Assembly: GCA_003141555.1 (NCBI GenBank)
Contig: PLMN01000007.1
Span: 70,514-134,513, forward strand
Origin: Candidatus Aminicenantota bacterium
GTDB lineage: Bacteria > Acidobacteriota > Aminicenantia > Aminicenantales > UBA4085
Direction of reading: 5' to 3'
Length of the DNA: 64,000 nt
This document shows, in pieces, positions 34,963 through 37,848 of the stretch; the stretch's first letter is position 1, and each line of letters opens with the position of its first letter. The notes beneath the pieces were generated by a model. That model had not been told where the DNA came from and ran no database searches. It saw only the letters and a list, made by a program, of their open reading frames with translations. Position numbers and translations under genes: made by a program.

Positions 34963-36747
34963 TTAAGGCAAATCCACCCGGAACATCGAGGTCGCGTCCG
35001 CGACATCGGCGATGTTCTGGGTCTTGAGGCCGCGCGGCAGCACCCAGCAGACCGCCGACTTCCCCCGGAAATAGCGCATGGCGCTCTCGACCGCCTTCTT
35101 GAGGGGGAACGGCTCGCGACTGACGACGTTGACCACGATCATCAGCCAGTTCATCGAGTAATGGCTGATGTTCGAGCCCTGCTTCAGGAGTTGGATGACG
35201 GACGGCCCGGCCGTCTTCTTCTTGGCATGGCCGAAGTCGGGCGCGTCGGGGGGGCCGATCGTCTTCAAGCCCGACGCCTTGGGGAACGCGGCGCTCGCCC
35301 AGCGGGCGACGGTATCGCAATTCGAAATGCGCGTATAGTCGCATTCGTAGATGTCCATGATCAGCTCGCAAGCCGTCGCCAACCCCTTTTCCTGGGGGAG
35401 CTTGAAGTCCGGGGCGAAGGCCTCGGCGCTTTCGATGAGCTTCGGCCGGTGGATCTGCGAGACAACGTCGATCCCGTGGCTCTCGGGCGTTTTCAGGTGG
35501 GTCTTGTAGATCTTGCTCGCCCTCCGGATGTCCTTGATCCCGCCGAACGACCCGCGGGGGATATGCCAGCAGACGGCCGAGCCCGCGCCGAAGAAGTCCA
35601 GGGAGAAGTCTACGGCCTCATCGACCGGGAGCGAGGCGCAGGTGAAGATGTTGGCCGAGGCCGTCGCCCCGAAGCGCCGGTAATTGATGGCGCTCGTCTC
35701 GATGTACTGGACGAGAGTGTCGCCCTCGTCCATCGCCGGGCTCGAGACGACCGGCGATCCGTAGGCGACCATCCCGATCGCCTTGCAGGTCTCGCGGCTC
35801 CACTGGGCGACCTGCCTGCCGTTCGGCCGCTTCCGGCCCGGGAGGTCGATGTCCATGACGATCTCCTCGCCGTACTTATCGACTTCGAGGCGCCGCTGGA
35901 ACTCGGGATACGGGACGGCCGAGATCTCGGGCGAGTACCAGCTCGTCTTGATCCCCGCCCGCTTGAAGTTCCGCCGGGCGTTGGCCTCCGCGTTCTTGAA
36001 GAGGCGCTTGCCCTTGGAGCCCGCGGTCAGCGAGAACGGCCCGCCCATGTAGCTCACATTGGCGAACTGGACGACGCGGACGTCGTCGAACGTCCGTTCG
36101 ATCTGCCGCCAGCTGCCGGGCGCCTCGAACGGCTGGAGGATGAGCGCTCCCGTCTGGTGGATGGTGATGCCGTCCTCCCTGAGGGCATCCTTGACGCTTT
36201 CGTAGAAGCTGGTGTTGAACAAGCTCTTGGCCGGCCCGATCGGGTCGGTGCTGTCGATTATGACCGCGTCGCACTGGCCCTTGAGCCGGCGGATGACCTC
36301 GGCCCCGTCGCCGACGATGAGCTCGAAGCGCGGGTCGTCGAAGATGCCGGCCGAGATCGCGGGCATGTGCTCCCGGCAGAGGTCGATGACCATCCGGTCG
36401 ATCTCGACCATGGTCACTTTCTTGATGTACCGGTGACGAAGGACCTCCCGGGCGACACCCCCGTCCCCGCCGCCGATGATGAGCACGTGCTCGGCCGGCT
36501 TGGGCAGGGCAAAGAGGGGCCAATGGGCGATCCATTCATGGTAAATCCCCTCGTCCTCCTCGGTGAGCTGGACGATGCCGTCGAGGACGAGCACCCGGCC
36601 GAAGCGGTTGGTCTCGAGGATCATGAGCTTCTGGAAGCCCGTATCGGTTTCGGGGACGACGATCTTGGACACCTCAAAGCCGTAAGTGACGTCGGTATAG
36701 AGATCCTCGAAGAACCAAAGCTTGTTTCCCTTCTTGACCAGACCCAT
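34963..36747 (-). CDS. speE: Spermidine synthase fused to two AdoMet-decarboxylase-like domains
   Basis: 594 residues from MGLVKKGNKLWFFED, preceded by AAAGGAG; an open upstream extension runs into the promoter. Residues 1 to about 285 are a spermidine synthase: ILETNRFGRVLVLDG, GGGDGGVAREVL (92-103), VEIDRMV and IDSTDPIGPAKSLF (164-177), with aminopropyl-transfer residues intact. Two related domains follow (about 290-420 and 455-594), each ending in SAVCWxxPRG. They resemble bacterial AdoMetDC: the first has IETSAI (349-354) where the self-cleaving ES motif should lie and FTC (368-370) at the catalytic cysteine. The second has lost the cysteine. Whether either is processed is uncertain. Confidence 0.85.
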   Translation of the reverse strand: MGLVKKGNKLWFFEDLYTDVTYGFEVSKIVVPETDTGFQKLMILETNRFGRVLVLDGIVQLTEEDEGIYHEWIAHWPLFALPKPAEHVLIIGGGDGGVAREVLRHRYIKKVTMVEIDRMVIDLCREHMPAISAGIFDDPRFELIVGDGAEVIRRLKGQCDAVIIDSTDPIGPAKSLFNTSFYESVKDALREDGITIHQTGALILQPFEAPGSWRQIERTFDDVRVVQFANVSYMGGPFSLTAGSKGKRLFKNAEANARRNFKRAGIKTSWYSPEISAVPYPEFQRRLEVDKYGEEIVMDIDLPGRKRPNGRQVAQWSRETCKAIGMVAYGSPVVSSPAMDEGDTLVQYIETSAINYRRFGATASANIFTCASLPVDEAVDFSLDFFGAGSAVCWHIPRGSFGGIKDIRRASKIYKTHLKTPESHGIDVVSQIHRPKLIESAEAFAPDFKLPQEKGLATACELIMDIYECDYTRISNCDTVARWASAAFPKASGLKTIGPPDAPDFGHAKKKTAGPSVIQLLKQGSNISHYSMNWLMIVVNVVSREPFPLKKAVESAMRYFRGKSAVCWVLPRGLKTQNIADVADATSMFRVDLP

Positions 36748-36841
36748 GCGACGCTCTCCTTTGCGAGAAACTCCCCGCGATCCGCTTCTGCCGCTAGGAA
36801 CGGGCCGGGGACCGCCCGGCGACCGGGCTGATTCGCTGTCT

Positions 36842-36870
36842 TTAATAGAATGAAATCGAAAAAATGTCAA
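36842..36870 (-). promoter_or_regulatory. Strong sigma70-like promoter of the spermidine synthase gene
   Basis: On the minus strand: perfect -35 TTGACA (36865-36870), 17-base spacer, -10 TATTAA (36842-36847). It lies about 95 bases upstream of the start codon at 36747, leaving a leader of roughly 88 bases that shows no recognisable riboswitch. Confidence 0.75.
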
Positions 36871-36918: not shown

Positions 36919-37848
36919 CTATCGCACGATAGAATACTTGTCGATCAACACAAACACCGCCAAGGAAAATACCGCGAGCACGGCCCAAAAAGCGACGCGC
37001 AGCGCGGGGCGGGATTTCAGCCTAAGATAGACGCCGCGGAGGCACGCGTCCAGGGCAAACACCTCGAGGGCGAAGACGGCGAATCCCCCGAAGCCAAAGA
37101 CCGGCATCTGGAAGATCCGGCCGAAATTCAGATAGGGAATGTGATACTCCCAGTGCGATCCCGAGAACCAGTTCAGGAATTCCCAGAAAACCCCGGCCGC
37201 CAGGCCGGCGGCCATCCAGGCGAGAACGGGCGATCGCCTCCCCTCCTCAAGGTCGCGGAGGAACGACCGCCGCCCCCGCCTGTAATTCAGGGGCTCGATC
37301 AGGAAGATGAAGCCGACCCAGACCAAGGGGAAAAAGAGCCGCGGCGCGGTAAGCGTCAGAACGAGACTCAGGACGCCGGCGACGACCGAGGCGCAAAGCA
37401 GAGCGGGCTTCGCCCGGCGCCGAGCCGATTCGGCCGCGCCCGCCATGGGAGACCGGCCCTTCATGAGGGACCGGGCAAGCGCGGCCAGCTCCTTAAGGGC
37501 GGGGATCACCGTGGCGAAGGCGATCGCGTACCCGAGCCAGCGGACGGCGAGGCTCGTCGGCAGCCCGTGGTAGGACCAATTCCCCAGGCGGACGTTGAAG
37601 GCCTCGAAGACGAGCCAGACGGGGATCGAGACAAGCGCCGTCCAGGCGAAGCCCGGGGGCTCCGAGGCCAGGGGCGAGACGCCCGTCCGCAGGACATTCA
37701 CCGCGTCCAGGATCAGGACAAGGGGCCACCAGGCGAAGCAATAGAACCAGGTCCGCGGGAACGGGACGCCGCGGGCGAGGAGCGCCGCGGACCCGGCGAA
37801 GACGATCCCTCCCGCCGCAATTTCCGCCCAAGCCCGTTTCTTCATCAC
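36919..37848 (-). CDS. Integral membrane protein of unknown function
   Basis: 309 residues with about nine hydrophobic segments arranged in two halves separated by a basic loop near residues 125-145 (LMKGRSPMAGAAESARRRAK). Tryptophan-rich motifs stand out (WFYCFAWWPLVLILDAVNV, GNWSYHG, EFLNWFSGSHWEYHIPY), and the two halves may be related, each carrying a W-x-Y-HG/HI-type motif. No family is recognised. No operon partner: speE lies downstream on the same strand beyond the speE promoter. Confidence 0.72.
   Translation of the reverse strand: MMKKRAWAEIAAGGIVFAGSAALLARGVPFPRTWFYCFAWWPLVLILDAVNVLRTGVSPLASEPPGFAWTALVSIPVWLVFEAFNVRLGNWSYHGLPTSLAVRWLGYAIAFATVIPALKELAALARSLMKGRSPMAGAAESARRRAKPALLCASVVAGVLSLVLTLTAPRLFFPLVWVGFIFLIEPLNYRRGRRSFLRDLEEGRRSPVLAWMAAGLAAGVFWEFLNWFSGSHWEYHIPYLNFGRIFQMPVFGFGGFAVFALEVFALDACLRGVYLRLKSRPALRVAFWAVLAVFSLAVFVLIDKYSIVR

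Follow-up and report, generated by a model that had tools for sequence, protein, structure and literature searches.

A bacterial spermidine synthase joined to two SpeDC-like domains with complementary catalytic residues

Pyruvoyl decarboxylases of the AdoMetDC fold and their fusions

The AdoMet decarboxylase (AdoMetDC) homologues termed SpeDC are pyruvoyl ornithine decarboxylases, recognised by diagnostic Gln, Thr, Phe and Tyr residues near the processing site (Li et al. 2023, PMC10407285; phage forms in PMC9992855). In the SpeDCs known so far, one small protein chain carries Ser63, His68 and Cys83 together. The fusion described here, from Candidatus Aminicenantes, shares with them a QxIETS motif with the processing serine, a profile and clade match of both its domains, Cys83 in domain 1 and His68 in domain 2, but splits the set over two copies joined to the spermidine synthase SpeE. 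In SpeD-SpeDC fusions (Desulfotignum, Omnitrophica, and Victivallis with a degraded C half; PMC10407285), an AdoMetDC is paired with an ornithine decarboxylase or a dead one, speE is a neighbouring gene, and there are up to two pyruvoyl sites. The Aminicenantes protein also has tandem SpeD-fold domains, of which one is degraded in Victivallis; in contrast to these fusions, both of its copies are of SpeDC type, neither is complete alone, and SpeE lies within the chain.

Eukaryotic class 2 AdoMetDC likewise consists of two fused class 1b-like halves, and it provided the best full-length structural match to our tandem. In the human enzyme, the pyruvoyl group arises from Ser68, the first processing step depends on Ser229 and the second on His243, and Ser229 has its analogue in Ser55 of T. 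maritima AdoMetDC (PMC3975893). Residue numbering places both Ser229 and His243 in the C-terminal half of the human chain. By strand and alignment mapping, the Aminicenantes tandem has the same arrangement, with the pyruvoyl serine in the N half and the Ser229/His243 equivalents in the C half. However, there is no detectable sequence relationship between the two, and we found no descent from the eukaryotic family: the Aminicenantes tandem is bacterial, groups with SpeDC, from which it appears to derive within its own clade, and has a different predicted substrate. Finally, AdoMetDC-aminopropyltransferase fusions (Pelagibacter and others; PMC11107197) also place an AdoMetDC-fold domain and an aminopropyltransferase on one chain, but with one complete N-terminal AdoMetDC, whereas in the Aminicenantes protein SpeE is N-terminal to the two SpeDC-type half-domains.

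AdoMetDC-aminopropyltransferase fusions, SpeDC and SpeD-SpeDC fusions are thus already known. The literature we searched held no description of a SpeE-SpeDC fusion, or of SpeE with two SpeDC-type half-domains and a split site.

The fusion gene, its domains and its distribution

The window analysed is a 64,000-nucleotide stretch of an Aminicenantes genome, in which a model's sequence-only reading had singled out the open reading frame at 34963-36747. This frame was confirmed; it lies on the minus strand, which that reading left unstated, with its ATG at 36747 and its stop codon at 34963-34965. Its parts and putative expression signals are as follows:

34963..36747, minus strand: whole fusion gene SpeE-SpeDC1-SpeDC2, 594 aa; full length kept in 22 aligned sequences (the window and 21 relatives)
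36756..36760, minus strand: Shine-Dalgarno sequence AGGAG, 8 nt 5' of the ATG, as read from the sequence
36842..36870, minus strand: promoter-like TTGACA - 17 - TATTAA upstream of the fusion gene, as read from the sequence; a consensus match only
35881..36747, minus strand: spermidine synthase (SpeE) domain, residues 1-289, with GGGDG and DSTDP motifs (NF002010, PF01564/PF17284, Foldseek)
35503..35880, minus strand: SpeDC-like domain 1, about residues 290-415, with the predicted pyruvoyl serine and the catalytic cysteine (PF02675, SpeDC profile, tree, AF2/Foldseek)
35383..35502, minus strand: variable linker, about residues 416-455; its length varies in the alignment, and its dN/dS exceeds that of the other parts of the protein in every pair compared
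34966..35382, minus strand: SpeDC-like domain 2, about residues 456-594, with the Ser55 and His68 equivalents (SpeDC profile, hhalign to the SpeDC alignment)

Judged by profile and motif, residues 1-289 are a spermidine synthase, with spermidine formation from putrescine as the predicted activity. The SpeE part scores 285.2 bits against NF002010, above the cutoff of 260, and 167 bits against PF01564, and its GGGD and DSTDP motifs are invariant across the 22 aligned sequences. Foldseek matched the domain to 1iy9, 3o4f and 1inl, with the E. coli and human spermidine synthases among its matches; the full-length AF2 model is weak in this part (pTM 0.62) and served for fold matching only.

Two stretches of the C-terminal half (residues 290-594) match PF02675 (AdoMet_dc; 30.9 bits, cutoff 25, E 3.6e-7), and a profile comparison of domain 1 with domain 2 gave E 2.4e-15. 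The AF2 model of the tandem, built on a 24-sequence alignment, reached pLDDT 91 and pTM 0.92. Its ten best Foldseek matches in the PDB extended over the whole tandem, at probability 1.00 and about 310 columns, and were class 2 AdoMetDCs or their prozyme partners of Trypanosoma brucei and human origin. Next came single-domain matches to the T. maritima and Aquifex AdoMetDCs at TM 0.81-0.84; each domain matched the T. maritima enzyme (1tmi/1tlu), with TM up to 0.84. Superposition of the whole tandem on class 2 enzymes gave TM values of only about 0.41-0.54 and an rmsd of 9-12, the relative packing of the halves being that of the model only. Both domains are, in the predicted structure, of the AdoMetDC fold. 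The sequence-only reading had proposed SpeE followed by two such domains, and had named structure prediction as the check, with C-terminal domains unrelated to AdoMetDC as the outcome to set it aside; the prediction was run, Foldseek returned the AdoMetDC fold, and the proposed architecture holds on the NF002010, PF02675, AF2 and Foldseek evidence together. A PDB sequence search with the tandem profile found no sequence at E <= 10, and an NCBIfam search with the C-terminal half yielded a weak threonine synthase match alone (E 0.18).

The tandem cannot be put down to chance, because its two domains match each other at the profile level, the architecture is conserved in 24 species, the catalytic positions are invariant in 24 of 24 sequences and purifying selection acts on each of the two domains, with dN/dS of 0.07-0.29.

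Two other candidates were rejected: a chance resemblance to AdoMetDC, on the profile E-values and the fold, and a plain dead duplicate or decaying domain, on the 24/24 invariance and the dN/dS range.

The fusion is present as a single copy in its own genome (3.79 Mb, 97% complete). A relatives search placed the full fusion in 10 of 12 genomes of its family, its own included, at 63-100% identity. By name, nearly all of the 23 loci recovered in a GTDB contig scan belong to Candidatus Aminicenantes or Acidobacteria, and removal of duplicates left 24 distinct tandem sequences. In a phylum-wide draw of 247 genomes, the fusion occurred in its own and only two others, both from one other family of the same class. 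Among these loci, one each comes from metagenome-assembled genomes labelled Brevinematales (Spirochaetota) and Chrysiogenales (L042 and L039), whose fusions are 57-59% identical to the window's tandem; the bins may be mislabelled, or the gene may have been transferred horizontally. Searches for the fusion in viral, phage and plasmid sequences gave no match, and a phage- or plasmid-borne gene was rejected for that reason.

The neighbours of the fusion gene are a divergent polysaccharide deacetylase, an S41 peptidase, PPIC/SurA isomerases and mfd (the last by sequence reading), with no polyamine genes nearby, and an Rfam search around the gene found no element. Immediately upstream, a 309-aa membrane-protein-like open reading frame (window 36919-37848, minus strand) has no Pfam match.

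SpeDC affiliation and a divided catalytic set

As SpeDC references we used viral-contig proteins picked by the motif QFIETSxIxxHF and known from sequence alone. Against the resulting profile, domain 2 scored 52.9 bits and domain 1 41.7, compared with 18.3 for the genome's canonical SpeD, and hhalign of domain 2 to the SpeDC alignment gave E 3e-14. In a tree with long branches and these motif-picked references, SpeDC and both tandem domains split from SpeD (SH-aLRT 98), and the two tandem domains are sisters (SH-aLRT 93). Neither the tree nor the profile scores group the tandem with bona fide SpeD. Among the SpeDC-diagnostic residues, domain 1 has two of four (Gln and Thr) in all 24 sequences; the third position is Tyr/Phe in domain 2, and the fourth, Tyr, is absent from both domains. 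Because of the profile scores, the hhalign match and the tree grouping, the tandem looks like a duplicated SpeDC, and neither a duplicated SpeD nor a SpeD-SpeDC pair of the Desulfotignum/Omnitrophica kind. This profile and tree affiliation also lends support to the earlier suggestion of a fusion retooled to decarboxylate an amino acid.

The positions that bear on catalysis are:

35692..35694, minus strand: Ser352 codon (T. maritima Ser63 equivalent), predicted pyruvoyl precursor; Ser in 24/24, within IETS/VETS, with cleavage expected between Thr351 and Ser352
35638..35640, minus strand: Cys370 codon (T. maritima Cys83 equivalent); Cys in 24/24
35200..35202, minus strand: Ser516 codon, domain 2 (T. 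maritima Ser55/human Ser229 equivalent); Ser in 24/24, first residue of the matching strand
35176..35178, minus strand: Gly524 codon, the domain 2 position expected for a pyruvoyl serine; Gly in 24/24
35161..35163, minus strand: His529 codon, domain 2 (T. maritima His68/human His243 equivalent), in an SNISH motif; His in 24/24

Neither domain holds Ser63, His68 and Cys83 together, the combination that defines a class 1b AdoMetDC; the complete SpeDC catalytic set is absent from any single domain and is divided between the two. The losses are complementary, domain 1 keeping the Ser63 and Cys83 equivalents and domain 2 those of Ser55 and His68, invariantly in 24 of 24 sequences. In domain 1 the His68 equivalent is Arg (Arg357) in all 24, within a loop that has a two-residue deletion; the interval from the serine to the cysteine contains no histidine, apart from one of the 24 sequences with a His at another position; and the Ser55 equivalent is replaced by Thr. 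In domain 2 the Cys83-equivalent column is no longer conserved, with seven residue types among the 24 sequences.

These patterns revise the sequence-only reading in part. It described the motifs accurately: SAVCWxxPRG occurs twice, near residue 395 (SAVCWHIPRG) and near residue 568 (SAVCWVLPRG), domain 1 carries FTC and IETSAI, and domain 2 lacks the cysteine. However, it took IETSAI for loss of the self-processing ES motif, whereas IETS is how this motif normally reads in SpeDC, with Ser352 aligned to T. maritima Ser63. Nor is one copy simply dead, as it had supposed, since domain 2 invariantly keeps the Ser55 and His68 equivalents that domain 1 has lost or changed.

The same residue split is found in human class 2 AdoMetDC, from which we infer one composite site across a pseudo-dimer, its mirror-image counterpart being dead. 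The two SpeDC copies would fold as an intramolecular pseudo-dimer like that of the eukaryotic class 2 enzyme. Domain 1 would give the self-cleaving serine, with Thr351|Ser352 processed to a pyruvoyl group and to chains with calculated masses of 39.5 and 26.6 kDa, together with Cys370; domain 2 would give Ser516 and His529 across the interface, driving both processing and decarboxylation.

A domain 2 loop that precedes the His strand, DAPDFGHAKKKT (window 35190-35247), is invariant or nearly so in all 24 sequences and is better conserved than its counterpart in single SpeDCs (HFGHNxxH), with a possible role in binding either the SpeE domain or the substrate.

Other families of the order carry unfused tandem SpeD-type proteins of about 300-334 aa (L088, 1402-2349; L090, 1294-2295; L091, 1167-2072; all minus strand), with a broken copy at L089, 1538-2326. 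These fall on the SpeD side of the tree. Their dead N domain keeps Ser55 and His68 and is without Ser63 and Cys83, next to a live C domain (AESHISLH...FSC). They follow the same trans-site logic and lend side support to a composite site.

The main rival sees the tandem as a pseudoenzyme without catalysis of its own, acting as scaffold or sensor (of putrescine or decarboxylated AdoMet, for example) to regulate the SpeE on the same chain or to dock the separate SpeD, much as trypanosome prozyme activates AdoMetDC. Regulatory, catalytically dead AdoMetDC paralogs are known (PMC5201418), and the full Ser63/His68/Cys83 set is indeed present in neither domain alone. This reading is nevertheless hard to square with the pattern of kept and lost residues: it gives no reason for S352, C370, S516 and H529 to be invariant (24/24) while the non-contributing partner positions have been lost, and the retained residues are exactly those that a class 2 AdoMetDC needs. 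It would also leave the genome without a recognised putrescine source. We regard it as unlikely.

Polyamine pathway context and predicted substrate

A canonical SpeD (ISESHISTHTWPE...YTCG; 131 bits) is encoded elsewhere in the same genome. Of the 9 other fusion-bearing relatives that were searched, 8 have one too, and production of decarboxylated AdoMet is therefore not required of the fusion. At the canonical SpeD locus L005 (1408-1854 and 1918-2361, both minus strand), SpeD adjoins an Lrp/AsnC-like regulator, by sequence reading.

The 97% complete metagenome-assembled genome itself contained no match to PF02784 (PLP-dependent ornithine/arginine/DAP decarboxylase family) or PF01862 (pyruvoyl arginine decarboxylase, PvlArgDC family), nor to PF01276 (ornithine/lysine/arginine decarboxylase family) or PF00491 (arginase/agmatinase family), the last two of which were searched in this genome only. 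Eight complete PF02784 matches from family relatives have LysA as their best match. PvlArgDC was seen in a fusion-free relative (G016, locus L152) and, beside the fusion, in a fusion-bearing one (G003, locus L151). Because the listed families supplied no other recognised ornithine or arginine decarboxylase or agmatinase, ornithine is our best guess for the substrate; the same argument from the absence of other decarboxylases identified SpeDC (Li et al. 2023, PMC10407285).

We therefore favour, with a probability of roughly 60%, a SpeE joined to a duplicated SpeDC whose copies share one split pyruvoyl site, taking ornithine through putrescine to spermidine on one polypeptide. The composite decarboxylase would convert L-ornithine to putrescine, which would be handed over to the same-chain SpeE for aminopropylation to spermidine, with decarboxylated AdoMet supplied by the separate canonical SpeD; such coupling may carry a benefit.

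Activity of the composite site on arginine, as in SpeDA, or on another amino acid in place of ornithine, seems distinctly improbable. SpeDC is close to SpeDA, one phage enzyme of the group accepts both substrates, and the SpeDC-diagnostic Tyr is missing here, but the SpeDC Gln and Thr are present, and the genome has no member of the agmatinase/ureohydrolase family, so that this family could not process agmatine or aminopropylagmatine. We give very little credence to a bona fide AdoMet decarboxylase in a self-contained AdoMetDC-spermidine synthase, the two-step enzyme that the sequence-only reading had raised, despite functional AdoMetDC-aminopropyltransferase fusions with N-terminal SpeD in Pelagibacter (PMC11107197) and the same two-half layout in class 2 AdoMetDCs, since the domain order is reversed with SpeE first, the tandem lies far from SpeD and groups with SpeDC, and a separate canonical SpeD accompanies the fusion in its own genome and most fusion-bearing relatives.

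The odds appear about even that this bacterial lineage independently reinvented the class 2 AdoMetDC layout, a homodimeric pyruvoyl decarboxylase having been duplicated, fused and split into obligately complementary half-sites, in this case in an ornithine decarboxylase within a single ornithine-to-spermidine polypeptide. Current models for the origin of eukaryotic AdoMetDC from two small bacterial proteins use SpeD-SpeDC fusions where one of the copies has just decayed. The Aminicenantes fusion would offer a living bacterial example of a later stage, with neither copy intact and activity confined to the two together, and mutations made in each half separately would then put the trans-site logic to a direct test. 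The protein would also represent a fused enzyme leading from ornithine to spermidine around a pyruvoyl decarboxylase, and it would close a gap in polyamine synthesis for the Aminicenantes, which are widespread and uncultured.
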